NCBI GenBank assembly: GCA_009829735.1
Contig: CM020619.1
Coordinates: 1,246,590 to 1,310,589, forward strand
Length of the DNA stretch: 64,000 nucleotides
DNA from: Pyropia yezoensis
Lineage: Eukaryota; Rhodophyta; Bangiophyceae; Bangiales; Bangiaceae
Direction: 5' to 3'
The first letter of the stretch is position 1. Each line of letters opens with the position of its first letter. Made by a program: the position numbers and the translations under genes. Positions 5,281-50,006 of this stretch are shown here, in pieces. The notes under the pieces were generated by a model. That model worked only from the letters and a program-made list of their open reading frames with translations. It had not been told where the DNA came from and ran no database searches.

Positions 5281-5804
5281 GGTAGGTAGGTAGGTGGGGG
5301 GGGGATGGGGGATTAGGAGGGGTAAGGGGGGTACGATGGTGGGGGGTCAAGTGGGGGAGGGGGGGTTCGGTGGAGGGGGGTCAAGTTGGGGAGGGGGGGT
5401 TAGGCGTTGCGGGGCAAGGCGGTGGTGCAGATGGGTGGGGGGGCGCGGAGAGGGGTGACGGGCGACAGCCGGCCTCTGTGCACAGCTGCCGAGAGGGGAG
5501 GAAAGCGGCGGCCGTGCCGCCCCCGCAACTCCCTCCGGCCTTCAAAAATGGCCGGGTCAACCGTCGCATCCAACGGCAACGGCGGACGGTGTCGGTAGAG
5601 AAACAAGGGTGGGGACGACGGGTACGCACGGCGGGCACAAAGCAACAACCCTCCAAACCCCCCCCACCACCCCCCCCCAACGCGAGCAACCACCGGCCGA
5701 GGCAAAAAAAGGCACATGCGGCCGGCCGCCCGCGCTGCACGACCAGACGGGAGCGAGGGAGCGAAGGAGAGAAGAAAAAAAAAAACGGTCGTCCCCCAAC
5801 GGAC
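5281..5804. other. G-rich gap between two convergent genes
   Basis: This gap lies between the stop codons of the importin (plus) and the PTC7-type gene (minus), so it holds both 3' ends. From 5281 to about 5410 the plus strand is dominated by closely spaced G runs of 4-9 with short spacers, the pattern that can form G-quadruplexes. The rest has no gene-like content. Confidence 0.4.
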
Positions 5805-8126
5805 TCACACCGCAGCCCCCACCACGGCCACAACAACCGTCACGTCTCCGTCCGTGCTGGCCGACGTGTAGGCACGGCTGGCGTCGCTCCATCCCGCGGG
5901 GCCGGTGGGTTCCTCCCCCCCCCCCCCCCCCCCCCCCGACTGACCCCAGCGACGACGTGTCGGCCGGGTCACTCGCAAACGTCCATGCAAGGTGCGCGAG
6001 CATGTAGGCCAGGTAGACCGGGTCGTCGCTCGTCCAGGTGGCCAGGCAGGTGTTGTTGGCAATTGACAGGGACGTGTCGTGCGCGCTTTCGGTGGGGCGA
6101 AGGAGCGCCAGTACTTGCCGCTCCGAGACATTGGCAAAGAAGCCGTCGCTGCCGGCAATCACCACATCCCCGTCCTGCACCTCTAGCACCGCCGAGCCAA
6201 TGGGCGGCAGCCGCCGCTCCCAGGCCAGGCGGGGGCCCGCGCCGTCGGGCACCGACAACGCTTCCGTGGAACCTCTCCCCGTCGTAGGCTGCTGGCCACC
6301 AACGCTGCTGGCAGGGGCGTGGCCATTACAAGCAGCGGGGCTGTCGCCTCCAAACGCGCGCTCCAGTGCCGCCACCGACCCCGCCCGCGGGGACCGGTAA
6401 ATGATGGACTCCCCGCGCAGCACCACGTACGCGCAGGTGCCCACATAGGCTGACCGGAGCACCCCGTGGTCGAGCGACACCAGCAGCGCCGACGCGGAGC
6501 GGGGCCGCGACACGCGCGAGAGGCTGTCGGCTAGGACCGACGGGAGGTCCTGCAGCGCGGCGGGCTCCGTCAAGGACGTGAGCACCGCCGCGTCCAGGAT
6601 GGCACTGGTGTTCTCATAGCGGCTCTTAAGGGAGGTTGACTGCGCCGCGTCTCGGGCTGCGTCTACCGCGCCAGTGTCGGCAATTCCAAACGTGCTGCGC
6701 TCCCAAAACGGGCACCACAAGCAACACGACGCACATCACAGCGGGGGAGCAACGGAAAAAAGTGGGAGTCAAGATGGAGAGGAGGCAACCACATACAGCA
6801 GGGCCGTGCGAACAGGTTAGGATTACCCTCAAAGGCGTGTCACACATACGCACTGCCACCTGACACGACTTGAACAACGGAACCGACGGCCATGCCTGTC
6901 ACAGCACGTGGGCGTCTACAGCGGCAACGACGGGGCAGCCCCCTGCAATCGTCTGCTGCGGGAGACAGCACCGCCTTGGCGCCCCGTCCTCACTGCATCA
7001 AGGCCCTTCTAGGCTAGCCGACCACGAGCCCTGCGGAACTCGTCAGCCCCCCAGCAGATCAGCGCACAGGTGGCCGGCCAGCTGAGCAGCGGTGAGCGGC
7101 GAGCGGCAAGAGGCAGTCGGGCGGCCAGTCAAGCAGTCGAGCAGACGAATGGTGGGCGGCCTCACCAAGCAGCCAGCGACAGTACCAGGCGTCAAACGGC
7201 AGCAGAGGCCACGCACCTGCAGTCGTCCAGCACAAACGCCTCATCTGTAGTGCCCTGTAGGCCGTGTACGTGCAGCACTGCCTGTGCGTCCCGGCGACCA
7301 CAGCGGATGGTGTAGGCCGAGGCGTCGAGCTCAAGAAGGGGTGCCTCGCCGAGGCGCAGCTGCAGACGCGCTGCGTCCACCCTGTCGACGACGCCCATCC
7401 AAGCCATCACGGCCACACACACACACATACGCATGCACGCACGCAAAAAAAATGCAGAGCTGAAGCGCCGCTCGGCCTCCCCCACTAGTCAGAAGGCATC
7501 CCAACAAGCGCGCACTCCGGTTCCGCATCAAGGGGCACCCACTCCCCAACCCCCACCCCCACCGCCACCTCGCGCTGCGCCACACCGTCACTGCGCATGG
7601 GTGGTCACGGCAGGCCATAGCAGCCCCGCCACCGGCCATAGATGGTCACGGCGGCCCGTGACCACCCCGGCCGTCGTCCTCCCGCCGCTGCTGCGCCCAC
7701 ACCGCCGCCACCACCGCCGCATCCGGCAAATCCGCCCACCACCCTCATAGACAAAAACCACCCCCAGACAAAAAAACAACAACAAGAAACGTACCCGTTC
7801 GCATCCGCATAGGTCGCGGTGGGCGGCGGGCGCGCCGCCCCCGCTGCTGCCGACAGCGCTCGCTGCGGCAGCCGGCCTGCCATCCCTCCCGCGCACCCCC
7901 ACCGCGGCGCCGCCGACGCGGCCGCCGCCGTCGTTGAAGACGCCCACGTGCCTACCGCCGCCGCGGGCGTCCACGATGTTGCCACGCCGGACGGGGCGCC
8001 GACAAAGCACCCGACGGATCCGCCCATGGCGCGGTCGTCAACGAACGGCGCACGCGCACGCGCGCGCACGCTCGCGCGCACCACACGCGAAGGGGGCACG
8101 AGAGGTGGGAGCAGGGATGCTGCCAA
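5805..8126 (-). CDS. PTC7-type PP2C protein phosphatase (three exons), catalytic motifs altered
   Basis: Proposed exons are 8126-7795, 7381-7217 and 6694-5805; introns 7382-7794 and 6695-7216 have GT-AG ends and all phases match. PPTC7/Ptc7 landmarks appear in order: EAFVLDDCSTFGIAD (family DAYFV...GVADG), SAYVGTCAYVVLRGESIIYR (family [20 protein letters not shown]), DVVIAGSDGFFANVS, and near the end GDVTVVVAVV. Ptc7 is a mitochondrial phosphatase acting on metabolic and coenzyme Q proteins; the basic N-terminus here is compatible with mitochondria. Several metal-binding positions look replaced (GVADG to GIADT, GDS to GTC, DD to GD before the last strand), so activity is uncertain. The frame changes at a 23-C run (5915-5937); the PP2C-like ending is in the frame that stops at 5805. 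The first exon and start are the least certain parts. Confidence 0.7.
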
Positions 8127-9340: not shown

Positions 9341-12300
9341 TCACAGGTCTGAAGACGAATCAGATGTCAAGCATCCACGGCCGATTCGGGAGTAGAGGAA
9401 ATCGAGACTTGTGGGGCCTGCTGTGAGATCAACTCGTTCCAGCGGGACGCCAATGCGCGCCATCGCTCCAGCCACGGCTGCCGCCGTCGATGCCGTGACG
9501 TGCTGCGAACCATCCCGTCCCGCCCCCCCCCCCCCCGCCTGCCCCCCTGTCCGCGTGCGGGTGCGGGTCCCTCCCCTCACGATGTTGATCTGGGCGCTGC
9601 GCACGCTGCCCTCTGCTGGGTTTTGGCGGTGAGGTGAGGAGCGGGCTCAGGAAGAGGGCAGCTGCCAAATTTGCAGCGGCTGCTGGTGCGGCTGTCGGGG
9701 CGGCTGGCGACGCAGCTGGCGCTAGCGGTGCATTTTGGTGTTGGTTTTGCCCGGATTGCTGGGTAGGCTCCTGCGCCGGGCACCTCCGTTGGCCTTGGCC
9801 CGCACTCTGCGAGTCCCAGCCATGTGTGCGCTTCACTCCGCTGTGCGTCATCGGTGCAGCGAGCCTTGAGGACAGTGTCGGGAGTGGGTCGGTGAGCACG
9901 GTGTTGGGAGTGGAGCGGGTGGATTCAGGTGTGGTGCAGGCGGGCTCTGCTGGCGGTCGAGCGGGCGGGCACTGGTGGCGGTTTTGTGAGCGGGCACTGC
10001 TGGCGGCACTGCGGGCGGGTACCGCTGGCGATTGTGCGGGCGGACGGCGCTTGGGGTCGGGTGAGCAGACGCAATCGAGAGCGGTGGGGGCGGGCAGTTT
10101 TGGGCGTCGTGACAGCGGCCGGCGTTGCCGATGTTGCGGGCGATCAGAGTTGTGCGAGGCGAGAATGTATGGTGATGGGAGTGGCGGAGGTAGACGACGG
10201 GCGGGCTTTCGCCGCCATGCATGCTCGCCTGGCCTCACGCGTAGCTCCTGCAAGATAATTTGTGATGCACTGCACGAGGCACCATCGGCGCGGACGGTCC
10301 GTACAGAAGCATGGAATGGAATTCCCCCCCTCCAGCTAAGGCAGCAGTCTATGCAGACCTCAACAGCTCTCTCCCTCCAGGCGGCCAGGTCGACAAGAGA
10401 AACACTATAGTGGCAAGACGGGAACCCGTACAGGGGACCGTGCTCAGTGGGAGGGTTGAAGCACCAACCCGCAGCCGCAGTGCCAAGTCAATGACAGGTA
10501 AACGGTGCAAAGAGGGATACGTTTAGACCTGCCGAAGATGGATGCTCTCGACGAGACCGCCAGCGCGTACCTGAAAAGACACCGCTGGCCGGTCGCAACC
10601 CTAGATCGGAGAGGTCGGTCCGAAGTGACCAACCTGTCCTGAGATACTATTGGAAATCCCTCAGAAGCGACAAGTACATGCGAAAAAGGTAAGTACCTCC
10701 CTAAAGGGCTTGCCACGACTGATGGGTAAGGACCAATGATCGTCCCAGGGAGTACTCGTCCGTATCTTGGGCTCACCCAGGATGCCTCGTCGATTCTTGG
10801 GAGGGGCGACCACCGGCACCTCTGTCCATAGCGTGGGACCAGTCAGGGGGCTTAGGTTGGGTGGCGATCCGCCGCCTATTTAGCCCGCCCAACCCCGCCC
10901 AGGCATTTGGCCTGCCATTTTATGGCCACAACTACGCGTACGCAAAGCAGGAGTCGAGTGCCGCGAGAAGAGCAGATCAGACAGAATGGCCACCGTACAG
11001 TGAGTGCAAACGAACAAGCGCAACGCAAACAATGCCAACGCACACCTACCCTCAAACATCCATCTCATCTAGGGAGGCCAGGATATCGAGGTCCAGGCCC
11101 GCAAGGTCCAGAGCCTTCTCCTCCAGGTACTCCTCATCCAGGGCGTCCTCGACGACCTCCAACTTTGAACGGCGAGGGTCTGCGCCGTCCACCAGACGAG
11201 TGCTGCGAAACTGCACGTTGTGGGGGGGCTTGTACGTGTGAAGGCGCAAGACCTCGGCGGCAAACTCAGTGAGCATGCCGCCTGTCAGGCCAGTGCACCG
11301 AGGCGGCTTGATACCCGCCGCCTTTGTAGTGGTTCTGCGGTGTAGGCGTCTAGCACCCGGATAAAACAGAGAACCTTTCCGTGGGAGAAACACAGGGAGA
11401 CCGGTGAGATACGAAGCATCCAACCGCCTGGCTGTCTGAAACGTAACGAGCACGCACCAGCACGGCAGTATTCACGCACATACAAGTCTGACTTTACGAA
11501 GGGGACAAGCAAAGAGCACCCCGGTGCGCACATCGTCACTAAACGCCCTTTTTCCATCAGTGGACAATTCTCGAGCCGCTTCGTTACGCCATCAGGCCAG
11601 TGTTTCGTTAAAGTCCCGATAGGCGCTGGGATACATATCAGTCGACAAGCCCGATAGAGAGACCCCTCACGAGACTCCTTACAGACACATTTCAGCAACC
11701 AATGAGGTGGACTGAGGGACGCGTATCGCACAGGCCGCCAGACCATACCAAACGCCCATCTCTTGACATGGATCTTCGGACCGTCACTCGATAGACATCA
11801 TGGACGCATCTCCTGACACGCATCCCAAGTGTATCCCAGGACAGGCTGTTTTTTCTGCCCGCGGGCAGGGACCGTACGGGGGCTCCTACGGCTCCTGGAC
11901 GGCGCTTCACGACGCGCGTGACGGGTACTTTATAATGGTGTGCATACCAAGCAGTCACATGAGCGCAGGCACTTCGTATGACTGCGCACTGCGGACGTCA
12001 AGAAGGGGACGTGCAAACAACAAAGCGCGCAAAGCAATAGCGCGCATGCAAGCCAGAAAGCGCCCTGAAACCAAGCATGACACCGGCCATGTAGATGGGG
12101 AAGCAAGGCAGAGAGGGGCACACGAGGACGTACACGCACAGCAGGCCCACGCAAACACAAAGCACCTCAGCTCATGAGATGGCGTAGAAGCTCAGAAAGA
12201 AAAGCACCACGCGCCGTACAGCATGCGAAACAATGGCACAAGGGAGCACACGACGGCACGCACACGCAAAAAGACCACAGAAGCAGCGTCTCTCGTGACT

Positions 12301-12449
12301 CGCAGACCCTCAGAGAGTCGGGCCAAGTTTGCTCGTTCAACCCGAAGCATGAAGAGTGCATGATGAAGCGCCACTCGTGATGCCCACAGACCAACAGAGG
12401 TTGGGGCTAAATATGCCCACAGAAGCACGCCATCAATGACCGCACTCCA
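9341..12449. other. Unassigned 3.1 kb, mostly without recognisable genes
   Basis: Overlapping frames at 9429-10410 on both strands are low-complexity and mutually antisense; neither is recognisable. A degenerate repeat around GCGGGCACTGCTGGCGG lies near 9950-10040. A minus-strand segment, 11290-11052, reads like an exon end: it finishes in an acidic tail (LDEEYLEEKALDL, then LASLDEMDV and stop) and could belong to an unidentified gene or a third transposon gene. The stretch 12030-12260 has two loosely similar blocks about 130 bases apart, as in subterminal transposon repeats. Confidence 0.25.
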
Positions 12450-14237
12450 TCAGGAGATCGGAGGAAAGTCGTTGGGGACGCCTTCGCGCTCGTCGGCGGC
12501 GACCGACACACCACCGCGGTCCTCCGGGGCGACCGCCGCGCCACTACCGCTTTCGCCACCACCCCCGGCTGCGCCGTTGTCGGCCCCCTCCATGACTTCC
12601 ATGCCGACGTCGGAGTTAGAGGCGTCGTCCTCGTCATCTACGACACCGCGGTTGGGGTCATCCCCGTCCGTGATGATCAGGCAGTTGTGCACGCCGTTGT
12701 CGCGCGGAAGGGCCGCGTCTGCGCGCGCCAACTCGCTCTCCCACTGCTCATAAATGGCGCCACGCAACCCCGACCGACGACGCGGGCGCAGCCCTGCCTT
12801 CGCTTCCAGCATGGAGCGGACAAAGCAACAGGCGAGCGCGAAGTGGCCCAGCAGGCAGCGGATAATGGGACGGCCGCCCACCGCAGCCGGCTCAGAAATC
12901 ATCTCGTCGCCGCCCCCACAAAAGCGAAGCATGTCCGCAGTCCCTGCCACCATGCTGGGCAAGCCCATCTCGGCTGCCATGTAAGCACCGATTTCCAGCC
13001 ACAGCTTGCACAGGTCGCTTTTCAGCTCAGCACGAGAGAGCCCGACGCCTAGAAGGAAGGCACTGCATACTAAATCCTTCAGGGACTGCATCAGATGCGG
13101 CTTGGTCCGCAGGACCGGGACGCAGGCGCGCATCCCGGCAAGGACGCTGGCGTTGCGTCGAGTAGGCAGGTGGACGGTGCTCAGCAGCCAGTCCTTTGCC
13201 TCCGCACGGTTGACGCGGCGCGTCGTCATGACAATCTTGATGACCTGGTCCCACGTCCGGTTGGTGCTGTTGTACACCTCGGCGCTGCGAGTGGCGCTGA
13301 TAATGCGCTTCTTCTCATTCTCGCGGAAGGCCATCTTGAGGGTTGATATGGCCGTCAGCGTCTGATCCGCCGCACTGGACGGGGAGGAGACGCGACCATC
13401 AGCCGCATTCGACATTTCTTCCAAGGCTCTCAGGACGTCCTTAAAGCCCACTGTGAACGTCGTCCCCATCGTGTGCACAGCCTGCGCTAAGCGCTCTTGG
13501 CTGCGACTAAGCACCTCAACCTTGACGAGCACGTCGCGCACCGAGTCCACTAGGTCGTCAACGCTCGTTGCGACTGCAATGAGCTGCACACGCAGCGGCT
13601 GCAGACCAGCGCCGACCACGTCAGACAGCGTAGATGCCGTTCCGCGACACGCAACAGAAGGAGCGCCAGCGGTGGCAGGACTGGGGGAGAGTCGAGGACG
13701 GGCCGTGCTCACGCCCCCTGAAGGAGAAGAGGGGGGCGTATCCGACATCATCGGACGGACGATAATTGGGCGTGCCGCCCCACCAGAAGCTGGGCGCAGC
13801 ATCTGGCATCCACCAGCAAGAGCCGAGCCCCCAGCAGGGCTACACGGCGCCTCTTCGGCATCCTGGGAAGAGCGCGTTTGCGAGGACACGCCCGGCTCCG
13901 CGCCGTTCGCCGCCGGCGCCTCCGGGACAACTTCAGTGCTGCAACTTGTGCTAGGGGTGGGCGGCGTGCTCATGGGAGAAGCAGGGGCAGGCATTCCAAA
14001 GCCTGTGTCCGCAGGAGGAGGAGATACAGCATGCATGCCAGCCGTGTTCGCGGGAGCGTCGGCAGGAACGGCGGCAGCAGAGGCCGTTCAAGAACCGGGA
14101 GCAAGCAGGGAAGGCGCGGCAGGAGGGCCGCGAGGAGGAGACCTAGGGCTGCCATCCCGCGGTGACGCGCGGCGACGCTGCGCAGCACTCGTCTTCGGGC
14201 GCGCCGGATTGGCAGGGCGCTTGGGAGCGCGAGGCAT
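12450..14237 (-). CDS. Transposon accessory protein, undescribed helical family (member 1)
   Basis: From an ATG at 14237 (MPRAPKRPANPARPK, very basic) the frame runs 595 codons to a stop at 12450, broken once by TGA at 14090-14088; the next in-frame ATG is at 14036. The N-terminal third is proline/serine-rich. Near 13640 comes GLQPLRVQLIAVATSVDDL, then a heptad-like segment suited to a coiled coil, then a basic region (LPTRRNASVLAGMR) and a C-terminal helical block containing EPAAVGG and LLGHFALACCFVRSMLEAKA. The tail is acidic and glycine-rich. I recognise no known domain. The same blocks recur in the gene at 21880-23421, so this is a family. By position, head to head with a transposase, it may act like the DNA-binding second protein of CACTA elements; that is speculation. 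Confidence 0.6.
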
Positions 14238-16482
14238 GCCTGGGGAGGACGTACGATGTGACAAACAGGCAAGACCAGACGAGCCAAGAGGTGCAAATCG
14301 TTCGTGGACGAAGAAGGGGGCATGGAAATACAAAGTCAGAACCATGCGGAGGCGGCAATCATGGGACACAGCGCAGCTCAGTTGCCCGATGCTCCACTCC
14401 CGCAAAAAAGTCATCTTCATGCTCTCAGTCCTCAGAAAGAATGCACATACCTGCAAGCGCGATGGCACAGCACAAAGAGTGGAGAAGAGTACACTAGGTG
14501 GTCAGTGTTGGGAGAGAGGAGCTTGGTCGTTGACGAGAGAGCTTGCGAGTTGCCGCAGCGTGGATGCGCTTGCAAAGGGTCTCCTGCTTGCCTTCTCGTA
14601 GGCCGGTGTGTGCACCTCTCCGAGCTCGCATGGCGCCGCAAGAGGCTCTGCGCCAGCAGCCCCACAGCAAGCAACCAAGCTCCTTTGCGCACGCTGTCCG
14701 CCTCTGCACGACAGGGGTGCCCACGCGCAACCTGTGGCGGCCAGTCGAGGGAGAAAAAAATCTGGAGAGCGACAGCCACAAGCATGGCGCTGCACACATG
14801 GACGAGGGCCCTGTCGCTGAGTGGGTGTAGCGTCAGTGGCAGCCAGGAGACGGCACGGAAGTTTGCGAAAAAGAACCTCAACGGCCCGTCGCCGCACAGC
14901 CTCTCATCACACAGCCTCTCATCGACAGCCTCTCATCACGTGCCCCTCAGTGAAGTCCTCTCCAGCGCAAGCACACAAGACGGTTGCTCTCACGTTGGAG
15001 ATGACTCGAATACGGCACGGACAACAGAAAAACGACGACCGGTGCCCATCATGGCAGAAGCACAGAAGCGCGGGAGAGAGCCCCGGAACGCCGTGCGCTG
15101 CAGTCCGCATTGGCGGCGCCTGCAGCTTTGCGCTCGTAGAGAAGCAGAGACCGTTGGGGAGGTTGCCGCAGGTAGGGGTCGGTCGCGACTCGGCAGCAGG
15201 ACCATCAGGCGCACAGCACGCCCGCGGTTTTGACCAGCGACTTGGCCGGTGCGGGCGTGGTTGCTCCCCACGTGGTGAGCAGCGCGCTCGCTGGCCCCGC
15301 ACGAGAAGCGAGCAGTGCGTAAAGGCCAAGACAGCGCATCGATCGAGCACACCTCACGATGCCCGATCGAAATGAGCGCCGAAATGATGTTGACGAATGC
15401 ACAGGGCGAGGGCCTGACAGACCCATAGCCAGGCCTCGATTGGTGCGGAAAGGTAGTTACTGGCTTTTTGTGACGCACTTACGGCGGTTTTCGCCAACAT
15501 GGACTCAGTCTGCCGACGATCGTTTTCGAATTCGGCGACAGGAGTTGTTAGGAGCTCGATGGGAGTCGCAGGCGTGACAGCCAAGCTCATAGCGGAGCGT
15601 GGCAGGTCGCCGCACGATCACCGCAGTCGCGTGACGGCTCGAAGGCCGAGCTTGCCAGCTTCTGTTTCCCATGCATCTGCCCAAGTTCTCGAGACTGCCG
15701 CCAAACATGCGCTGTCACGAGGGCCATCCGATGCAAGGTGGCCTGAACGCAGGCTTGGACGCGCCGGAGAAGGGCATGATTCACTTCTACACAAGGCGCA
15801 AGAGTTTCGTGCTGCTGTTCGCTGGCTCATCTGGCGTCCGTACGCTTTGGGGGGTGCCGAAGTTATCCCATGGTCACAGCGCGCCAGGGGAACGTTATTC
15901 CTGTTCTGGCACTTGGAATCTGCTGGGGTCGGCGCCGAGGGAGCCCCGGCAGGAGGGGGTGACCCGTGCAGCAATCTTACTGCAATGTGTGGCGTGCGCG
16001 GCCCCAATGACGGCGTGATTGACCGATGTGCCCGGAGCGTGTTTCCGCACATAGGACTGGGCCGTTGCTGCAGAGGTGCTCCTGGGTTCGGCGAGATTCA
16101 GAGGTGCTGCTGGCCAGGCGCACTTGGCCTGTCGTCTTCGTATCTCTCTTTCACTCGCGGTCCTCAAACTTGCACTTTTTGTTGACTTGCGCAGCCCGTC
16201 ACAAAGTTTTGCGTTTGAGACACCAGGCCGCAGGTTGCGGCTAGCTTTGGTGTGCGGCGCACCCCAGAGTCTCCAGGCCGTGAGCCGCATCGGCTGCTAC
16301 CTGCTGGCTTCCTGCGCTGTCTGCGACTACCAGGTGGCGTCGGAGACAGGTGAAGGTGGTGGCAGGAGCGCTGCGTACTGCCCCTGGGCCGCCACCGGCC
16401 CCCCCTCCTCCCTTGCTGCGTCGTCACGACCCCCTCTAGCCTCTCCGCGCGCTTGTATCGTTCCCCTCCTTCGTTCCCCGCA
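14238..16482. other. 2.2 kb between the two divergent transposon genes
   Basis: Presumed bidirectional promoter region and leaders of the accessory gene and the transposase. Frames exist on both strands but overlap each other and resemble no protein. I see no clear TATA box close to either start and no obvious tandem array. Confidence 0.3.
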
Positions 16483-19400
16483 ATGTCCGATGTGCCATTA
16501 TCCCGAGCAGAGCTGCAGTGCCGTATTTGTGGGCGTCGTCCGTTCTCCAGGCCACGTTGCGGAGGCATGAACTGACGTCCCATCGAGGCGACACTGGGAG
16601 CGCTCCTCGATCTACCGCTGCAAGTCATCGCAGTCGGCTGGAGGACGTGGATGGGCGGCGGAACTGCGCGACAGCAGCTCCTTCTGGGGTACCACTTGCC
16701 GCTGGAAGTGGAAGTGGCGGTGGTGACGCGGCGCTGCACGGGGACGATGCAGATATAGCAGTGATACTACAGGCTAGCGAGCAGCCTGTGCCGGCAGCAG
16801 CTCAAGGCCGCAAGCGTTCACGCCCGCCCACTCACGCTCAAAAGGAGAGGACCTTCCCATCCATTTGTACCAGGGTACTTGGTGTGTATGAGCGCTATGG
16901 TGACACGGGCAGGAGCTTGCCGCTTGCCCGCCGGCGCGCCCATAGCAAGGCAGGTCAGTTCAACACCCGCCGGCTGCTCGCCTTCGAGTCCTTCATCTTC
17001 AAGACGGGAGGCTGCGGGATGTCGGCAGAGGGCGCCAACGATGTCTGGAATCTCTTTGACGAGTGGGAGTCTGATGGGCCCTCTCCAGGTGGCAGGGCAA
17101 GGAAGCTGCGGGAGTACTTCCCGAACCCCCATGCGATGCGGCAAGCGCTCGCTGACGACATTGACAAGGCTGTGGACTCCGACGCGTGGTACTCATGCCA
17201 TCTGACGGAGCTCGACGAGACGTACGAGGCTTACTACCGCGCTGCATTGCCCAAAATCGTGTCCGCCTTGTTGGGGGCGCCTAAGGTCCGATATTGGGCA
17301 AAGGGGGACGAGAACGAGGGACCATCGGACTGTCGGGAGACTCCGTTTGATGGGGATGCTTTCCGGCTGTGTGAGGAGCAGGTCCTCCGAGAGCACGGGC
17401 CCGACGCTTTCGTCGTCGGCCTCTACGTTTACAGCGACAGCTGCGTTATGTCTGGATCTGGTGGTATGTGAAGTCCTGTTCTTATTGGCGTCTTCGCCCG
17501 CCGTGCTTTTCTTTATACACGAGCATGTGCGTGACTGTGTGCCCCGTTTCCGTTCCTGAAGAGCCGATCGCTTTGCTCTCCCTACTGTCTTTGCCTTCCA
17601 TTGAGTGCTTGAGCGAGCAGCTTACAAGCTGTATCCCAGCAGAACGAGAGTCGTCAACGCCCTTACCGAGGAAGAAGAATGGATCACCCTCGCGAACGTG
17701 CCCCAGTTAAGCACGGAGAAGGGGTCGGCGGGCATGGAGCGGTCGAGATTGAGGCGGATGGCCATACTGCAGCGCGTTCTCTACCTCGCGTTCCGGTCAA
17801 CCATGCGCGCAAGTCACAACGGCGTGTGCATTTCTGCAGGACCACGCGGACAGCTGCTGGCGTTCCCTCGAATCATTCTTTACCTCTGCGATCAGCCCGA
17901 AGAGCGACAGGTGCTGTGCTTCAAACCTGGGATGTGCCACCGTCCGTGCACAATGTGTGAGGTCGCGGTGTCGGACTTGGGCGTTGAAGCAGCTCTGCGC
18001 GCAAGGAAGCGCTGCGCTGTCTCCGTCGTGGAGCGGCAGCTGGAGGCGCACGGACATCTTACTAAGGGGCGCGAGAAACGACGGCGGCTCAAGATTGAGA
18101 GGGAGTGGAGCGTCAACAGTCAACCGCCGGCTGTAGCTGCCATGGCGGGGCTGTGCACCCCACCGTTTCTGCTTTGCAACATCGTCGCCATAGACGTCCT
18201 TCACGTACGTTTGCTGCTTTGCCCCTCGAGATTCCTCTCTCTTATTTCTCGAGTTGCTTGAGACTGCTTTGAGGCTGCTGCTTGCGGCACTGACACCGGT
18301 GCTTCCCATGCGCTCCTTGCGCTTGCGTTGCTGGGCATGCGATGACCAATTGGGCCTGCAGGTGTTGGACTTGGGCATCACCCGTGACTTGGTGAAGCGA
18401 CTCGTGCAGGTGTTTCCGTCCATGTGCGCCGGTGACCACCCGGTCTGTGGATCCTTTTCGGCTACATACGCGGAAGCGTACAGGCGGCTTATGGACTTGG
18501 GACGCCGCTGCAAAGCGTCGAGAGTGAAGCCAGGGTAAGCCTGTCCGCTTCTTTTTGTGTGCTCGTCTTTTGTGTTCGCGTTCTGATCCTCTCTGGACAA
18601 CAGCACCACCGCAACGAGTACCAAGGTGGTCTAATGGCGCGTTCTCCACTCCTCTCCATTTCCCTGTGCGCTCCATGGCGAGCTGCGTGCAGATACTTCA
18701 TCACCGAGGACGAGACCCAGGCTACGTACACTGGCAGAGAGCAGCGGTTCGGGACGTGGATATTGCCGTTCTTAGTCGCCGGCCTGTTTGGTCCTGGCAA
18801 GTCTACGAAGGGAACTGACTCGGGGGTCTCTCAAGAGGACGAAGACGACGGTGGGGACGCAGCCAGCCGGCTCATCAACTCGTTGGGCAACCAGACTGAC
18901 TCACCAAACGTCGCAGAGAATGGGGATGGTGATTCTACGTCTCCCGCAAGCGGCAAGAGCAGCGGCGCCACACGCAAGAAGCACAAGTTCGACAACGACG
19001 CCTACCGTGCAGCGTTCTCTGATACACCCCTGCACGCAGCAGTGACAGCCATGTTTGCGGAATACGCGCTGCTGGTGGGGCGGCTGACCAGACGGGTAGG
19101 AGTCGCTGCGGGTCAGCCTATGACTCTGTCTGAGGGTGCTTCACTTGCGCAGCAGGCACAGGACTTCATCTTTGGCTATGTCAACCCCATTTTGGGGCAC
19201 GTCAAGACAACCAAGATCCACCGCGTGCTGTGCCATGTGCTAGACTCCGTGAGGTACCATGGGAACCTCATGAACGCCAACACCAGCTCGAACGAGATGG
19301 GCCACAAGGACGACAAGAGGCACTACGCACGAACCAACAAGCGGGCAGGGTACACGAGGCAGCCCGTACGGCACGCTCACGGCACGCGGAAGGTGCTGCG

Positions 19401-20106
19401 TCGGAACGCAGCAGCGAGGCTTGCGGAGGATCGCGCTGCCAGGGTTGACGGCGGCTATGTAGCGGACAGCGAGAGAGAATTTGCACCTTTGCGTCGGGCA
19501 CGCAGAGCACATCTGCGCCACGATCGAGTTGGTCGTCTTGCGGCGACGCCAGGGCTGTCAACGTTGCCAGCCGTGCTTGGCATCCCTGCGTCACAATGCG
19601 TGGCTGTGCCTGCCCACATTTTCTTTCGAGCGCAGCTTCCCTGTGGCGAAAGACGCCAGTTGGTGCGCGCTTCGCCGTCCTTCCATGACAAGCAGTGGTA
19701 TGACCACGTTGAGTACCGGCCGCCCGGCACGGAGGCGGGTCGGGATGTGCAGTATAGTCAAGTGCGTCTGATTGTGCGCACTCATGACGACGTGGACCGG
19801 CTTGTCTTGGCAGACATGGAGCGCGTGGAGGGTGCTGATGAATGCCCACTGTCTGCTCGCAGCTGCACACAACTGAAGTGGTCCACAAGTGCACGTGGCC
19901 ATGCCGGTGACGATGATCGACAAGTGAAGCTGCGCGCTATATCTGTTACAGATGTTATGCGTGTAGTGCACATTGTTCCAGACTGCGCGGACATGGGCCG
20001 CCGAGAGACGATTGGAGTCGCGCCGCCTGCGTTCGGCTCGAATACCAAGCGCCTGTGGAGCATGCGCTATCTTCTTAATGCTTTCCATCCGGACTCAGAG
20101 CAATAA
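16483..20106 (+). CDS. Plavaka/KDZ-like transposase (CMC superfamily), four exons
   Basis: Exons 16483-17463, 17621-18204, 18362-18534 and 18693-20106 are joined by three GT-AG introns of 157, 157 and 158 bases with matching phases. The start at 16483 opens a C2H2 finger: CRICGRRPFS in one frame continues as ATLRRHELTSH in the next, a one-base slip near 16552 inside the finger. Recognisable Plavaka-type blocks follow: ETPFDGDAFRLCEEQVLREH, VVGLYVYSDSCVMSGSG/AYKLYP (likely first catalytic aspartate), AFPRIILYLCDQPEERQVL, then CHRPCTMCEV, a zinc-knuckle-like pair, and DVLHVLDLGITRDLVKRLVQ. The last exon carries a possible late helical region (IHRVLCHVLDSVRYHGNL) and a basic tail. The protein should cut and paste its own element. 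Apart from the finger slip the frame is intact, so decay is recent. Confidence 0.8.
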
Positions 20107-20107
20107 A
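20102..20107 (+). terminator. AATAAA polyadenylation-like signal overlapping the transposase stop
   Basis: The stop codon TAA at the end of the transposase lies inside AATAAA. The hexamer could serve as a poly(A) signal, although its use in this lineage is not shown by the sequence. Confidence 0.3.
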
Positions 20108-21879
20108 CTCTTGACTGTCCAAAGTGACGCAAAGTGACAGCGCGCATGTAAGCGGCCGCTACCGCCGCCGCCGCCACCAGCATCAGCACCACAGCCCACC
20201 ACCGCCGCCCAAGCCCCTGCCCCTTCCGCAACGCCTCTCACCCCCCCTGCCCAGCACGCTTTGTTCCTGCGCAGCAAAGACCATCGCCACTTCCGCTGCC
20301 AGCAGATAACAGTGACGCTCTGCGACGGTGCCGGGGGCAGCAACCAGCTCCCCATCCTGCTCCAGGACCACAATGTCGGCCAGAGGATTGCGCTGGGGAC
20401 CAAGCTGCCCTCCGCTCTGTACCGCGGCAGGGTGACTCAGGCGAAGAGGCTCTGCTCCCCCCCTTCCGCATCCGACCTTGCTCAGGGGGGCATCCGCTAG
20501 AACTTCTGCCCCTACCGCCCTTTGCACACCGTACCTTTCCCTGTCACCGCTGCCGCCTAGCTCGCCACCGTAACTGTCGTGACCGCGACGCTTGCCCCCA
20601 CCGCCGCCGCTGCCGCCGCGACAACAGCCGCCGCGGCCGCCATCTCCGTCACGGTGGCGGGCGCGTCCGCTGCCTCATGGTGCTCCACTGCCGGCGGGTC
20701 TCTTGGCCTCTCAACCGGCGGGCCTTGCGGATCCTCGTCAGGCGCGTCTCTCATCACAGCGTTGGGTACGTCCGCTGCGGCAGGCGCATAGACACGAGCC
20801 GACCCATCTGGCGCGGGCGTCGGCTACGCGGCGGAGGCGCCGGCCACCTTCGCACCGGACCATGAGGAGGTCACCCCTCCAACGAGCGTTCCCGGCCAAG
20901 CGGCGGTCGCCTCATCCCCGCCGCTGTGCAACACACCGTCGCCGTCGCCGCCGCCCTCCCCGCCGCCGCAGCCGCCACCGCCGCTGCCGCCGCCGTCGCC
21001 GCCTCCGCAGCGGGGGCGGATGCGTCCGCTGCCACATGGGGCGGACTGAGCTTGCTTGTCAGATGCACGCGATGCAGCTAGACACACACGAGCATGGGGG
21101 AGGATGGCCAGGGAGCCGTCGCACCCTCTGCCACCGCAGCCGTCGCAGTCACCTTCCCGTAAACTCAGTCGCCTCACTCACGGCACCCGCCGCTGCCGCC
21201 ATGCTCGTCTGCCCAGTACGGCACGCAGTGGCCGGCGGGCGCGACCGTCGCGATGGCGCTGCTACCCTGTGCGAGAGGGAGCTTCAGGGGCTCGACGGGT
21301 GCAGCGCAGAAGTGGGCCGCATTTTGTCGTTGGCACTCGCCGCTGAGAGTGTCCGAAACAGACACTCAAGGAGTCTGGCCGCAAAAAACGCGAAGGCTTG
21401 CAGGCGTGGGCTCGCCCGAGACCTTGGTGTGTCGGATCAACGCACTTCAGAGTCACAGGACTGCGCAAGCGGCCAATGACGTCCTGTGTTTCAGGGCAGC
21501 GTCTTCTTACTTGACACCGCCATCTGCGAAGCCCATCGAGGCCGCTGACTTACAGAGCCGGCGACCTTCATCCCATTGATGGGTGAGATGGGCAAATTGG
21601 TGCTTATCGAAACTCCCCGTCCCAGAGGGCTTGATACGGATCAGAGCCATTGATAGGCCTTGTTATGGAAGTCGATGGGGAAACAGTCTATTGTGACGAT
21701 ATACCCCCTCACGCCGGGCACCCAGCGACCATACACCCCGGGCCACGTGCGGGCCAATCACATTCTAAGCAAGCGGTGCCAGCAGGAATCTCCCCGCACC
21801 TCTCCCACGGGTCATCCCAGCCAGCGGGGCAGTGCCCCCAAAGCAAATACAACTACAAATCCCTCACCAATGCAGAAAT
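20108..21879. other. Low-complexity gap after the transposase
   Basis: From 20160 to 21060 the sequence is dominated by CCG/CCA trinucleotide-like runs that open artificial alanine, arginine and proline frames on both strands. From 21060 to 21879 complexity rises but I see no gene. Just after the transposase, two copies of CAAAGTGACG/CAAAGTGACA lie side by side (20119-20138), a possible subterminal repeat. Confidence 0.3.
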
Positions 21880-23421
21880 TCAAAAACAAAGTAGACCCCC
21901 TATTGGGGGTAAAATCCATACAATTGGATTGGGCAAACGCCCTCCCAAATCCAGTATCCCGAGGAGATACCGGCACCGGTCTCGGGTCACCTCTTTTCCG
22001 GTTGGGCCGAAGAATCCCGGAGGGACGCACCAACCGGGGGCCATGCGGATAGCCGCGTGGCCACCCAGTGAGGGCTCCACGTGTGCGTGCCTTGGCACCG
22101 GTGACACCGAATGCCACCGTATCGCCTGGGCGGCGCCCCAGCGCAAGTGTTGGGGGATCCCTTGGATCCCCACAGCCTTCTCGAACACGGCGCGTATAAT
22201 GGCACACACGATGGCTGCATGTGCGAGCGTGCAGTCGACATATTGTGTCCCTTCGATGTTGTCGGGCTCTACAACGCGGTGGCTTGCGCCCACCAGCTCC
22301 ATCAGCCGCATGATCGTCTTGCGGATGGCGGAGACTCCAAGCTCCGACTTCTGGTACGCCAGGTTATCCAGCCACTTATTCGCCGTGGGCTTCTCCAGCA
22401 GCGACGCCACCTGGTCCAGGAGGTCTGCGGATGCCGACCGCTTGCGCTTGCCGCACCGCTTGCTCGATGTCGACATGGGGATGCCAGGGATTTCGAAGTG
22501 GACCTGTATGAGCACCTCCTTGTACCCCTGGAGAGTGTGGGAGCGGCTCCGCATCGGCACTGCGCGAACGCGCGCCATCGTGGTCTTGCTCTTCCTGCCA
22601 GGGTAGACCTTGCGGCTCAAGGCGGGCGCGCGCGCCTCCTCCTCTGTCAGCATCAGCTCTTCCTCAATGGCCATGTTCATCTGGTCCATTGCATTATCGG
22701 CGTTCAGGCACACTCGGCGTGCCTCGATCGTGGTGGCCGTCTCCGACTTGGCGTTCGACCGCAGGTGGTTTCGGATGCGCACAAGCTCACGCTTGTTGTC
22801 CTTGGCGCGCTTGAAATCCTTCCTCATGCCGTCCATGTTGCCCCGGTCCAGACCGACCATCTGCTTCAGCTCCCTGTCGCTGGTGGACATCTCCGTCTTG
22901 AGATTGTGGATGGTCTTGGCCATCTGCTCCAAAATATTGCCCTGCGTGTCCAGGTGCTTGCCATACTCTGCCACTTTTTCGGTCAGCTCCTCGACGCTCG
23001 ATGCAATGATGTTGACGTCGAGCCGCATCGGCCGAATTCCCGCGGGTACAGCGTGTGCCAGCGCGTGCCCCGACTGTGACAGGATGGGTGTCCCGTCATA
23101 GAGCTTGTCAGCGGAAAACGTCGGCACCATTGCGGGAATCTGCCCGCCGCGCGCATTGGAAGCCTCCCCCGACGGCTGGGACGCTCCTTTCCGCCCTTTG
23201 CCCGTCTTGTAAGCTGGGCCCGTGGTGGACAGTGTGGCAGTATTGACCCCAGATAGGGGGTCGTGCCATACAAGGGACGGCAGGCAGCTAGTCTGACCCG
23301 TTTCTCCCCATGCATTTGGGCCCATATTCCCCAAGTTAGGGATAGTTAGCTCAGTAGTAAGTCCAACTTGGTCTTGAGGGTTTTCTGCATTTCTTATCGT
23401 CTTGAATATTTGTGTGGCCAC
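21880..23421 (-). CDS. Transposon accessory protein, undescribed helical family (member 2)
   Basis: A frame of about 514 codons; it opens with GTG, so the true start is unresolved and may lie in an upstream exon or at a later ATG such as MVPTFSADKLYD (about 23130). Blocks shared with the gene at 12450-14237 occur in the same order: GIRPMRLDVNIIASSVEEL near 23035 (the other has GLQPLRVQLIAVATSVDDL), a coiled-coil-like stretch rich in K/E/L, a basic YPGRKSKTTMARVRA segment, and near the C-terminus EPDNIEGTQYVDCTLAHAA followed by IVCAIIRAVFEKAVGI. The segment just before the C-terminal block is lysine/arginine-rich (SSKRCGKRKRS), a possible nuclear signal. No transposase is recognisable beside it, so it may be a remnant of a related element or of a non-autonomous copy. 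Function unknown. Confidence 0.55.
   Translation of the reverse strand: MATQIFKTIRNAENPQDQVGLTTELTIPNLGNMGPNAWGETGQTSCLPSLVWHDPLSGVNTATLSTTGPAYKTGKGRKGASQPSGEASNARGGQIPAMVPTFSADKLYDGTPILSQSGHALAHAVPAGIRPMRLDVNIIASSVEELTEKVAEYGKHLDTQGNILEQMAKTIHNLKTEMSTSDRELKQMVGLDRGNMDGMRKDFKRAKDNKRELVRIRNHLRSNAKSETATTIEARRVCLNADNAMDQMNMAIEEELMLTEEEARAPALSRKVYPGRKSKTTMARVRAVPMRSRSHTLQGYKEVLIQVHFEIPGIPMSTSSKRCGKRKRSASADLLDQVASLLEKPTANKWLDNLAYQKSELGVSAIRKTIMRLMELVGASHRVVEPDNIEGTQYVDCTLAHAAIVCAIIRAVFEKAVGIQGIPQHLRWGAAQAIRWHSVSPVPRHAHVEPSLGGHAAIRMAPGWCVPPGFFGPTGKEVTRDRCRYLLGILDLGGRLPNPIVWILPPIGGLLCF
23200..23420 (-). repeat. Dispersed repeat B, copy 1
   Basis: This N-terminal coding segment of the second accessory gene recurs on the plus strand at 49478-49700 with high identity; shared peptide text includes NAENPQ, TKLTIPNLGNM/TELTIPNLGNM and GVNTATL. 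In this copy it directly abuts repeat C. Confidence 0.7.
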
Positions 23422-23825
23422 GCGCAGTTGTCTTTTTCCCTGAGGGCGCGGGCCAAGGGCGCCTCGCTGTCCCTCTTAACGTGCATCTTGGAAAGCCTCG
23501 GCACGTTGGCCAGGTAGCCCCCCCCTACCCCCGAGTGGCCCCGACCCGAGTCTAACCTCGTCAGGTCGGGGGCCACTATCACTACTACTTCTATTCTCCC
23601 TCACTAATCTCACACTCAAATTCTCTCAAATCAAGTCCATCACAAATGTGCAAACACCCATCAGAAGTCCCTCTCTCACGAGTGGGTAGCGTAGTCCACC
23701 GCATCCCAGTGCCGGGCACGGGCCACGGCCGCCAACCATCCCCACACGGCGGGCGTGTCCTGGCACCTGGTGTCCCTTGGTTGCCATCCCGGGTCGGCAC
23801 CAAGTCAGGGCCAGAGATGCTACAC
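23422..23825 (+). repeat. Dispersed repeat C, copy 1 (404 bp)
   Basis: A block starting GCGCAGTTGTCTTTTTCCC and ending TGCTACAC that recurs in the same orientation at 50507-50907 with roughly 85-90 percent identity by eye. Its left edge is sharp at both loci, while the neighbouring sequence differs. It includes the distinctive segment CCCCGACCCGAGTCTAACCT. I cannot place it in a known family. Confidence 0.7.
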
Positions 23826-26800
23826 CGATGGCCGACTCTGCTCCGGCGTAAGTATGTGGCGCGCCGTATCCGCGGAGTCTGCTCCGGGTACTCCGAGCGT
23901 AGCGCTCCGTGTGGCTCCGTTCCAACTGGGCTGACGAGTCGGATCCATAACCCGCCGTGTCCGGAGGTTGTCCGGGAGTCGCTGCGCCGGGGTCAACCCC
24001 GGTAGACTCCGAAAGTAGGCCGGCCGGTTTAAACCGTACCGGTGTGGGAGGAATACGACGGGGTACCTTCGTGTAGCGTGTTAACATCAGCACTGCCATT
24101 GCGTCCTCTGTACGCTCTTGACGTGCGTTGAGTCCAGAAAACCAAGCCTCCATGTGGGCCAATGATGCCATCAAGGATTCCCCGGGTGAAGGTGGCGGCG
24201 GATGGAGATCCGCAGAAGACGGTCACGGCGGGCCTCCGCCCCCTGCCGTCCGAGCCGTACCGAACGTCGATCCGGAACCGGAGAGCATCGGCGTCTCAAT
24301 GTTGTCCATCGGGTTACCGATCCCAGTTCCCGTAGTCACCTCCGGGGTCGGTATCGACCCCGATCCGTCATCTTGAGCGTTCTTCGTCTCTTGAGTTGAA
24401 ATAGTCACCATCAGTCAAGTGACGTAACGGTCACCACAAAGGAGAGACAGAGGGGGTGGGAAGGGGGACGTAACAATCGATCACAATCAAACGTAACCAC
24501 TCAACACAGACAACCAGATCGCAACACCACGAGTACAAGAAACGGAACGACTCCATATCCGTGTGCCAGGGCCGAAGACGGCCTCACCACTAGGGTGACG
24601 GAAACCCGTCCCCTGCTGCTTCACCAACAAAGCAAAATAGGAACCCGTTACACGTCCACTCTCAGGGAATACTCACCAGGGGGGATCGGTACCAACGTCA
24701 CCCGGAGGCCAAGGTTGCAGTCCTTGGAGCACAAGCCACGGGACCAACATGGGAGTCCAAATGGGAGCGGTGTGTTGTTCTACCATGGCCGGCGGTGTAT
24801 TCGCCGCCGGAATTTTCGTTATAAACCCGCGGAGACACATCAAACTACGCTCCACCCCAAGATGCAAGTCCCTCTGGTCATACGTAACTCGTACCGTCAT
24901 AAATACGTACTCCCAACTTGACAGTTAAGGATTAGAAGTAGCTCCCCTAAATTAGGGTCGCAATACGGTCATTCATATTGTTACAATCGGCCATGGTGTA
25001 GACCGAGGCAGCTGGGGCTCCCCTCGCAAACAACCCGCCCCTGACGAGACACCAGCACGGGGGGGGCATGCCGGGACGATCCGGGAAAGCGCAGGCACCC
25101 GCGCTTATGTATACCCCGACCCGGCATCGGGTAGCAACCGGGGCAACGCGCCCCCGCGCCCAGGCACCTGGGCTCACGTCACACCCTCCCACGGGGTGCA
25201 TCAGGGGGGTGAACCCCCCACAACCGCCCCCGCGCAACGCGGGCGCGCTACCCCTCTCTGGGCCACACGAGGCGGCCGCATCCACCACCAGACACCTGGT
25301 GGCGGATCCGCTTGCACCACACCCTCCGCGGGGTCGTGACTCGGAGCCCGCATCGGGAAATTCAGTCGGGAAAACGGACTGGTTTTGCACCACACATAGG
25401 GGTGCACCCGCCCTCAATGAACTCCGGAACGGGGTGGCAGCAGCGAACGGGCGTGAAGCTCGCGCCCCCCCCCGCCTATAGATGAAAGGTTTGGGGAGGG
25501 GGACGGATACACGGGTGGTGCGCTGCGCGCGGTGCGATCCGAGCAGTGCCTGCAGCGTCGCGCGCCGAGCCTCGGAGCAAAAGCCGGTGCGTGCAGGGCG
25601 CCGAGGTAGGCTCGGGTGCCGTGCACATACGAGATTTTTGTTTTGATTAGCGACGCTGTTGAACTATGATTACAGATTCCCGTGACATCTAAAAAGCTTA
25701 AAACATTTGAACATTTTCTGCTCGCCATCTATGTACAGTCTTTCTCCATTCTTGGGCACCCTTTGTGGCGACCGTAAGCCCAAGGATTGTCTCTTGATTC
25801 CGCCCTCTGATTGGTCGGTGACAACGATCGAATGCTGACACATGCGTTGATCGCACCGTAGAGGTCGGTCGACCTGCATTGGTTACTAGACACCGTGCCC
25901 AAGAAAGGATGTCACAGCAATGGAGCAAGACTGTATCTGGCATGTGGTGAAGAGAGCAGCGAGTGGGACAGACGCTTTTAGAACTCCAGGAGGAGCACTT
26001 TAGTGGAGACATACAATGGTGGAGAGCGAACGCTAAGGGGGTGAGGAGGGGGCGCCATCTTATGAACCCGTGTTTGATGGTGGCGCCGGCGTGCGGCTTC
26101 TTAGGGCAGCTCTCGCAGATATCTCGAGGAGAACGACGCGAGAAGAGTGAAGGCGAGGGGACGGAGGGGTCGCTTTTCAATGTAGACATAGGCGAGGCTT
26201 TGTGGGTAGCGGGGGCGTGGGGTGTGTTTGCGTGGGTCGCGGCCGTCCCGCCGCCTGGTACACGCTGACGACGCCGCCGTGCTCTGATGGCGTCACCTAG
26301 GTTATGGCTCGGAAGGTCATGACGGCGAGCCAGGCGCAGCTAGCTCGCCTCGGCCGCGCGCTTTGCGAGTCGGAAGTGGTGGTGCTGACGTAGCTGCCGA
26401 CGCAGCTGCCTACGGCCGCAAGGTGCTGTCCTACGGCGCGTAGGGCGGGCAGGAATGACTTTCGGGAACAGCTTTGAGAAGGGGGGAAGGGGGATGGGTG
26501 AGACGGGACTAAGGTCGGGAAGAGACGGAGGGAGTTCCCGGATGGCTGGTTGTCAGGGGACTACCAGCCGCTGCCGGGGAATGCCTTGGTCGGTGGCAGT
26601 CTAAACTCATACGCACGCATGTCTGCGGATGTGCCAGCGCCTCTCGGAGAGGTGGCGGGAGAAGAGGGGCCTCCCGGCTTGCGTGATGCGGGGGGGCGAC
26701 TGGGGTGCCTGTGGATGAAGAGCGCGAGAAAGGACCTAATGAACAGTGAGAGAGGGGGCCGGTGCGGGGGGGCGGACAGATGGGCGTAGCCCAGGTGGCA

Positions 26801-29744: not shown

Positions 29745-32248
29745 TCACAAGCGCTCCCGCCCCCCCCCACCCCCCCCCCGCCCCTCTGCCGAGGAAGACC
29801 CCCCCACCGATGATGGTGCGCCAGTCAGGCGATTGACCATCACCACGTTGCTCGTGCGGAGGCGGTCGGCGGCGCGCAGCACCGCCGCGACGTCCCGGCC
29901 CGGGTAGTGGAGGAGGAGCTTGAGGGCGCCGCCAAAGTCGGCCGCCAGCAGCGGGCCCCGCACCGACACGAGCATCGCGACGATGACGTAGCGGAGCCAG
30001 GGGAGGCGCACCTCGGCGGTGAGCAGCGAATCCCACACCCGCAGCAGTGGGCTGTCCATGTCTGTCTCAAAAGATGTAGGGGGGGGCGGGGGGGAGGGCG
30101 TCACTGGGATGCTCCCACCACCACCATCGCCACTACCGCCGACGGTGCCACCTCTGCCCGCCCCTGTGCGGTCGTCGGCGGCGGGGACACCCGCCCAGGG
30201 GCCACCGCTGGCCGGCAGCGTGTCTTCCCCTCCCCTCCACGCCGCTCCCTCTCGGCGCGGAGCCGCGAGTGGGAACTCCCGTGCCAACCACAGCCGCAGG
30301 TAGCGGAGGCCGTAAAAGCGAACGTCCACGCCCAGGGTTGCCAGGTGGCCCGCCAGCACCGGGTCCTTGATTTTCAGCAGGGAGCCCAGCTCCCGCAGCT
30401 GCCGGTCCAGCGCCGTCCCACCACCGCCGCCGCCGCCGCCGCCGCCGCCGTCGTCACCGCCGACGCCGCCGCTGCCGTCGCTGGCGCGGTCGCCCCGGCC
30501 CGTGTCAATGCCGTGGGCACCCCCAAAAAGGCGGTCCGCAGCTCCCCCCCCCCCGCCACCCCCCGGCCCCCCCGCGGCTGCCGCCCGCTTGGCCGCCTCC
30601 ACTGCCGACGGGGGCGGCACGAACAGCGGGGCCATCTCGGTGAGCACCTCTGCGAGCGACGCGTACGCGTCCGCCTCGGCGTCGGTCCCCCCGTCGGTGG
30701 AGGGGGCGGCGGCCGAGTAGACGACGAGGAAGACGGCGCCAAGCTCGTTCATCCCCTGCCGGTAGCCCACCGCCGGGTGTGCCTTGGCGTAGACGAACAG
30801 CAGCCGCCCGAGGGCGGGGCGGAGGCGCCGCCAGCCGGGCACCCCCGGGTGCGTCCGCGACACGTCCGCGTCAATGGTGCGGCGGAGGCGGGCGTCGGCA
30901 AAGTGGGTGGCCCACCGCGAGTCAGGGGCGGTGGAGAGGGGGTGATCCGCAACGCCGCCACCGCTGCCGTCGCTGCCGTCGCAGCTGCTGCCGCCGTCGT
31001 GGCCGCCGGCGCCCACCGGCGCCCAGCCGGCGCCCCCCAGTCCGCCCATCCCCGCCGCCCCCCCCCCCCGCGCCCCTCCGTGCGAGTCCTCTGCCTCGGA
31101 GGGGTCCGCACTCGCCGCCGCCACCGCCGCCCAATAGTCTGCCCGACAGCGGCTGGCCACCTCATCCCATCGCCCCCGCTCTGGCGGCAACACCCCCAGA
31201 AGCACCTTCCACACGGCCGGCCGGTCTGCCGGGCACGGCACCCCATGCGCCCACACCAGCCGCCGCAGCTCGTCCGTGTCAATGAGAGGGGCGTCCATGC
31301 ACTCGGCCAGCAGCGTCGCCTTGTCCGCCGCACTCAACCGCGGCGCCTGCCCACTGCCGCCGCCGCCGCCACCCGTCGAGGCGGCCGTCCACACCGAGCC
31401 GTCGGCGCTGCTCGCCAGCGCCGATCCGACGCTCGTCCGCGGGCTCCCGCCGCTCCCACCGCCGCCGCCCCCACCGCCGCCGCCCCCGCCGCCGCTGCCG
31501 CCACTGCCCGCCGTGGCAGACGCGGCGGCCGACCCCCCCACCCCGCGTACCGCGTATGGCGGGGGGCTCCCGTCTGGGCCGTCGAGGGCGTAGCGCAGCT
31601 GCGCGGCCACCGCGTCGAGGTGGCGGACAAGGAGGCCCCGGGGCGCCCCGCCGCTCCCCGCGCCAACAGACGAGCCGCCGCCGCCGCCGCCGCCACCACC
31701 ACCACCGCCGCCGCCGCTGCCGGTTCTGCTTGGCGCCACGGACCCCCGGCGGCGGCGGCTTGTGCGGCCACCCCCCTCGGCGGCAGTCGGCGACGGCGGC
31801 GACGGCCCCGCCGCGGGGGAGCCGCCACCGCCGCCGGCCAGCCCCCCCCCCCCCCCCCCCGGGACGGGTCTGTCGGGGACGGGGAGGAGCGAGTGGGGCT
31901 GGCAGCCCCCCCCCTGGGCACCGCCCCGCCAAGCGGGGCACCCGCAAACTCTGGGCGGACGTAGCCCGCCGACTCGGCAAGCGGGGGGGGCCCAGCGACA
32001 ATGGTGGGCGGCCCATACGCGCCGCCGCCGCCGCCGCCGCCGCCGACGCCGCCGCCGGCGGTGTGATGGCCACCACCACCACCACCACCCCTCCCACCCC
32101 CCCCCACACCACCAACCCCGCCGCCACCGTAGCGGCCACCGCCGCCGCCACTGCCGCTGCCGCCGACGCCATAGCCGCCGCTGCCGCTGCTGACGCTGCC
32201 GCTACTGACGCCGCCACCGGCGGTGGGCGGGAAGGCGGCCAGCTCCAT
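29745..32248 (-). CDS. TBC1D13-like Rab GTPase-activating protein
   Basis: From ATG 32248 (MELAAFPPTAGGG) to a stop at 29745, about 834 codons, with very glycine-rich linkers. The TBC domain follows the TBC1D13 plan: PLIDTDELRRLVWAHGVP, RPAVWKVLLGVLPPERGRW, DHPLSTAPDSRWATHFAD, then IDADVSRTHP with the arginine finger (IxxDxxR) and VGYRQGMNEL with the glutamine finger (YxQGM). The C-terminal half keeps VDVRFYGLRYLRLWLAREF and LLRVWDSLLTAEVRLPWLRY. Both catalytic fingers are present, so it should stimulate GTP hydrolysis by a Rab; TBC1D13 acts on Rab35 in animals, which cannot be assumed here. The N-terminal 130 residues lie in a different frame, the switch falling in a 19-C run (31842-31860); the start is therefore less certain than the domain. 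Confidence 0.85.
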
Positions 32249-49504: not shown

Positions 49505-49700
49505 ATGCAGAAAACCCTCAAGTCCAAGTTGGATTTACTACTAAGCTAACTATCCCAAACTTAGGGAATATGGACCCAAATGCAGGGGGAGGAACGGATC
49601 AGGCTAGTGGCCTGCCGCCCCTTGCATGGCACGTGTTGCCCCCCTACCTGGGGGTCAATACTGCCACACTCCCCTCTCCTCAGTTCCGACCGACCCGGTC
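49478..49700 (+). repeat. Dispersed repeat B, copy 2
   Basis: Matches the minus strand of 23200-23420, the 5' coding part of the second accessory gene. It starts at GGCCACAC and carries the peptide text TKLTIPNLGNMDPNA. Here it is separated from repeat C by about 800 bases, while in copy 1 the two touch. Confidence 0.7.
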
Positions 49701-50006
49701 GGCCCTGTGAGGGGGTGCGTAAACGCACGTCTCGGCGTTGGGGGCGCGACTTGCTGTCCCCCATCGAGTACGTAACACGGATGTGGAGGCGGTCACGTTG
49801 ACCGCCCCTCTCCTCAAGCTTGCCCACTCGGCAGCTTGCTCTCCTCAGTTCACACTTCACCATCACCACCACCTCCCCTTCACCTTCCACTGGGCCGCCC
49901 CACGCTGGGGAGGCCACCCGTATACCCACGATCCGAGTCCCCCTCAACTCGAGGCGGGTCTCGTGCTGCGATAGCCAGAGCGTCTCTCCCCAACTTGGGG
50001 AGAGCC

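Follow-up and report, generated by a model that had tools for sequence, protein, structure and literature searches.

The Plavaka transposons have been little studied: the available accounts describe a transposase, to which TET/JBP genes are added in some fungi and large gene clusters in Amoebidium. Transposition of Spm needs both TNPD and TNPA, the latter a protein that binds subterminal repeats; TNPA and TNP1 of Tam1 have little mutual similarity (PMC2613891). Here we analyze a 64,000-nucleotide stretch of the genome of the red alga Pyropia yezoensis (C2:1246590-1310589, hereafter the window), which contains a Plavaka-type element with two genes between its terminal inverted repeats (TIRs). 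One encodes the transposase and the other, ORF2, a protein that, by analogy, is probably a TNPA-like accessory factor that binds the element ends. All counts of the ORF2 family and of transposases refer to this one genome, whose 107.5-Mb assembly has 11 contigs, including three of 43.6, 34.3 and 29.4 Mb.

The element resembles PlavakaB of the fungal CMCT clade, as presented in PMC12730594, in having a transposase that is apparently related to PF18759 and has C(2)C and H(3-4)H motifs, and in having termini that start with CATC (CATCG here, CATCA there). The text consulted describes TET/JBP genes in some families of the fungal elements, and no accessory gene of the ORF2 kind. With TNPA of Spm/En and TNP1 of Tam1 it shares a second element-encoded protein beside the transposase and repeated subterminal motifs. 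However, ORF2 is a separate divergent gene, whereas Spm tnpA and tnpD are spliced from shared exons (PMC2613891, accessible portion). Its motif also differs from those of TNPA and TNP1, and no homology emerged from Pfam scans, a comparison that TNPA itself stood outside. Because TNPA and TNP1 are themselves scarcely alike, this missing homology does not weaken the analogy. The Plavaka giant repeats of Amoebidium likewise hold further genes beside the transposase, but form clusters of up to 50 kb with many tyrosine recombinase genes, a class not looked for here (PMC11244446, in the sections available). The portion of the Plavaka literature covered mentions neither a red alga nor such a second protein; a prior description of the family in Repbase, NCBI nr or other algal genomes, which lay outside the search, is possible.

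The window element (Table 1) holds ORF2 and the transposase between inverted ends beginning ATCGTCAC. Its right end, 21700, rests on one copy (L033, 96% identity) and its left end, 11532, on three. When at most one mismatch is allowed, the first bases of the TIR occur on the ORF2 side in all of the 20 loci L009-L028 except L013, L017 and L028 (17 loci), and such an end is present in 7 of the 11 loci fetched for transposase-side ends (not in L035, L036, L038 or L044). Both ends were recovered in eight elements, the window copy and seven more, with both genes between one TIR pair. A pattern of 13 fixed bases taken from the ORF2-side consensus, ATCGTCACcAA..gaCttTTtcCCATCA, occurs 21 times in the genome, compared to zero occurrences for the reversed control; 14 of these have an ORF2 or transposase place, from a list picked by eye, no more than 9 kb away, and all 14 face inward. 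The termini read ATCGTCAC..GTGACGAT, and most ends have a C before the first A, giving CATCG rather than the CATCA of PlavakaB (CATCA..TGATG). The element is therefore named Plavaka-type and not PlavakaB. Flanking dinucleotides are equal in two of the eight elements (AC and GT) and differ by a single base in the window copy (AC/AT), where a Plavaka duplication would be 2-3 bp.

The association of the two genes extends across the genome. Using the ORF2 protein as a query gave 85 matches, which merge into 79 places and span 18 to 100% identity, and the diverged member L047 gave 97 matches. The union comprises 96 merged places, including 18 new ones that were selected by eye from the L047 search and of which some are weak matches (E up to 1e-3). 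A transposase place lies within 10 kb of 72 of the 96, with 70 of these pairs head to head and two tail to tail, which supports the view of the initial annotation that DNA transposons, here of the Plavaka type, carry the family. For the first 79 places, 65 have such a neighbor (64 head to head) at a median distance of 3.2 kb, against a chance expectation of 1.84 (maximum 7 in 200 random placements); close copies among them are not independent, but the identities of the matches range from 18 to 100%. Conversely, ORF2 was found within 10 kb of 71 of 119 transposase places: 65 of 81 scoring at least 100 bits, 2 of 10 at 60-100 bits and 4 of 28 below 60 bits. Of the 48 places lacking a detectable ORF2, 32 score under 100 bits, and thus a diverged share of the transposases has no detectable ORF2. 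These may represent another lineage, or their ORF2 may have diverged past detection. We regard ORF2 as almost certainly an integral gene of the element.

The initial annotation had noticed shared, ordered blocks in two minus-strand frames of the window, 12450-14237 (ORF2) and 21880-23421. The two are indeed homologous (BLASTP E 3e-20, 22% identity over 346 columns), and their local alignment score of 201 compares with a mean of 36.6, a standard deviation of 5.8 and a maximum of 65 over 1000 shuffles; in the whole-genome search, the best piece linking them has an E value of 9.1e-9. Frames are present at both positions, but the first contains a stop codon and the second, a single open frame of 513 codons, has foreign ends. 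Most of the positions that had been called invariant vary, including the E-P and C: among 22 sequences, just one His and one Tyr are invariant. Eleven positions are conserved in at least 90% of the 22 (A148, P159, R171, K188, G200, L215, S223, G242, G255, R275 and E279), among them the R and E of FVRxxLE. The view that the family has no known named domain holds, as no Pfam family exceeded the cut-off in two scans and none reached an E value below 0.0027 in a third.

The ORF2 protein is retained by purifying selection over the longer term, while close copies are little constrained. Ratios of nonsynonymous to synonymous substitution (dN/dS) are 0.13-0.37 for five diverged pairs whose dS of 0.95-1.43 is near saturation; two of these pairs include a window gene (0.19 and 0.37). 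Six close comparisons, two of which are the whole gene and the core of one pair, give 0.42 to 1.22, and one N-terminal pair gives 0.82. Two further pairs that were not aligned were left out of the set.

The ATG at 14237 is the start common to the relatives of ORF2, despite an in-frame stop at 14088-14090 in the window copy; after this stop, the segment from the first ATG spans 12450-14036. A regular expression for the start motif, MPRAPKRPANP, matched six other rows of alignment A1 (L009, L012, L014, L023, L024 and L026). Stop-to-stop frames of 800-1100 codons occur at many ORF2 places, with the longest open frames reaching 1114 codons. The protein appears to consist of a basic start, a coiled coil, a basic domain that weak structural evidence suggests is winged-helix-like, and a C-terminal domain. 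Profile matches of the coiled-coil segment are to designed coiled coils (best E 2.1e-8). MarR-type regulators account for 14 of the 50 Foldseek matches listed (E 2.6-5.8), and Cullin winged-helix B domains match model residues 82-184 in about 15 of 50 rows; the latter share 10% identity with ORF2 in the three best rows and are unrelated in function. Net charge is at least +3 in the winged-helix-like segment of 18 of 21 sequences, zero or below in the coil of 17 of 19 and zero or below in the C-terminal domain of 16 of 22. The model of the C-terminal domain has no structural match. Two copies show further peculiarities: the frame in L047 (7-1011, minus strand) has a terminal glutamine run, and ORF2 of L011 is interrupted at about 3333-6864 by an insert of ~3.5 kb with inverted ends beginning GTCGGTGACCGGAACCAC, probably another DNA transposon.

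The transposase is, as read from its sequence, probably of the DDE type and intron-containing. Plavaka and its relatives have a first catalytic Asp followed by C(2)C and H(3-4)H motifs (PMC12730594, available part), and the window protein presents YSDS, CTMC and HRVLCH in that order, the last two having been chosen by eye from the published description. PF18759 matches it with an E value of 5.3e-4 and 19.7 bits, under the cut-off of 26.3; genome-wide, 101 of 114 matches to this family exceed the cut-off, including some next to ORF2 (for example, C1:24320439 and C3:15529913). The N-terminal frame has 125 genome matches, corresponding to the 119 places above, and many of them end at query residue 316-317. 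Together with the GT donors that follow both upstream exons, this common stopping point suggests a shared intron. Separately, five pairs of equal-scoring transposase matches lie on the same strand 8.6-10.1 kb apart (C2:3556758/3565373, C2:19453751/19462936, C2:30230282/30239103, C1:3257675/3267098 and C3:12351828/12361930) and are either tandem copies of whole elements or assembly duplicates.

The words YATCA/TGATR are concentrated at the element ends. Over 16 ends, the outermost 250 bp hold 51 of them and the two bins of equal width that follow hold 5 and 7, counts to be read with the provisos that the word was picked from the same ends, that some ends are related and that the outer bins are lower in G+C. 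Compared with dinucleotide shuffles, TATCA was observed 20 times against 3.3 and CATCA 31 times against 11.7. The window element alone has three words per outer bin, yet two of its interior bins hold 4 and 3; the case for the repeats therefore rests on the whole set of ends.

These features lead us to propose a two-gene, CACTA-like transposon in which a DDE transposase is accompanied by a divergent accessory gene. ORF2 would enter the nucleus by way of its basic start and oligomerize through the coiled coil, while the winged-helix-like domain would bind the YATCA repeats that lie within the outermost 250 bp at each end. The protein could in this manner pair the ends for the transposase; regulation of the divergent promoter is a further possible task, again on the pattern of TNPA in maize Spm/En. 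Directly observed are the two genes inside one TIR-bounded unit, the family and its co-location with transposases, the subterminal repeats, the purifying selection between diverged copies and the element order in the model of the protein, and from these the introns and the functions, from nuclear entry to regulation, are inferred. The suggestion in the initial annotation of a DNA-binding or regulatory partner is thus retained as the best reading of ORF2.

VANC proteins of VANDAL elements provide a precedent for a different role, in which ORF2 would counter silencing of the element or act as its transcription factor, in the VANC-like or TET/JBP-like sense, with no part in cutting. The divergent arrangement of the genes suits such a role, and fungal DNA transposons including Plavaka have captured TET/JBP genes that are thought to counter silencing (PMC12730594, as far as its available text goes). 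However, the Pfam scans of ORF2 reveal no enzyme domain, and clustering of the motif in the outer 250 bp of the sampled ends is a better fit to end binding; we consider this role unlikely. Still less probable, in our estimation, is that ORF2 serves as a second subunit of the transposase complex through protein contact, whether as scaffold, targeting factor or nuclear carrier, and does not bind specific DNA. The coiled coil, long linker, acidic tail and conserved C-terminal domain would all be compatible with that function, but the basic winged-helix-like domain speaks against it, as do subterminal repeats that have no other evident reader. Finally, passive pairing, with ORF2 a host gene or separate repeat that neighbors the transposase by chance, could draw on the 24 ORF2 places without a transposase within 10 kb, but is largely contradicted already by the TIR-bounded elements, eight of which enclose both genes, and by the head-to-head orientation of 70 of 72 neighbors, and is highly improbable.

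If ORF2 is indeed a TNPA-like end-binding protein, a conserved second protein and subterminal repeats would make this a two-component clade like Spm/En and extend that plan beyond plant CACTA elements. It would also provide a large natural set of protein/end-motif pairs within one genome, and a name for a family of frames that annotation would leave as hypothetical proteins. More tentatively, ORF2 might be a new family whose C-terminal fold is not yet in the PDB, which reads subterminal repeats across a whole clade of Plavaka transposons and has diverged with its transposase to yield dozens of separate end-motif/protein pairs within one genome.

Table 1. Features of the Plavaka-type element and the neighboring relic (window coordinates)
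Feature	Position	Strand	Remarks
Plavaka-type element with both ends, 10,169 bp	11532..21700	.	Left end set by divergence of copies L009, L010 and L011; right end by that of the 96% copy L033
TIR, ORF2 side	11532..11559	+	ATCGTCACTAAACGCCCTTTTTCCATCA
Subterminal repeats YATCA/TGATR, ORF2 side	11540..11789	.	3 words, then 1 and 0 in next two 250-bp bins
ORF2, family protein	12450..14237	-	Shared start at 14237; next ATG after the stop at 14036
C-terminal helical domain of ORF2 (predicted alone)	12651..13127	-	13-residue overlap with winged-helix-like part
Basic winged-helix-like domain of ORF2 (putative)	13089..13379	-	Model residues 88-184
Predicted coiled coil of ORF2	13401..13640	-	Model residues 1-80; single long helix, low confidence, block pLDDT (predicted local distance difference test) 46-71
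Transposase exon with YSDS (candidate first catalytic Asp)	16518..17463	+	YSDS at 17430-17441; GT donor 17464; motif and donor read from sequence
Transposase exon with Plavaka domain	17605..18204 (start not fixed)	+	CTMC at 17947-17958; GT donor 18205; PF18759 match
Open frame with remaining transposase	18559..20106	+	Exon limits provisional; HRVLCH 19219-19236; candidate Glu 19294-19296
Subterminal repeats YATCA/TGATR, transposase side	21443..21692	.	3 words, then 0 and 0
TIR, transposase side	21673..21700	-	ATCGTCACAATAGACTGTTTCCCCATCG
Second family member, solo relic outside element	22162..23230	-	52.5% identity over 303 codons to ORF2 of L032

Of the two window genes, only the first lies in a complete element with a transposase. 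The second is a solo relic without a partner; the closest transposase to it belongs to the first element and is oriented tail to tail. By comparison, the related ORF2 of L032 (C3:15523684) has a head-to-head transposase at C3:15528840. Family sequence in the second gene is limited to about 22162-23230; dispersed repeats make up its first ~64 and last ~100 residues, and some of this repeat sequence is found again at 49479-49670. A genome search with the whole frame gave 85 matches, 69 of them located entirely or mostly in these repeat flanks.

Two adjoining repeats lie beside the relic (23231-23825) and recur ~26 kb away at 49479-50908 with 86 and 90% identity. A dispersed repeat at 24631-24988 is also present, at about 86% identity, next to ORF2 in loci L009 and L010. 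Farther along the window, the minus-strand interval 29745-31739 holds a RabGAP-TBC domain gene (E 2.9e-15), presumably a host gene.
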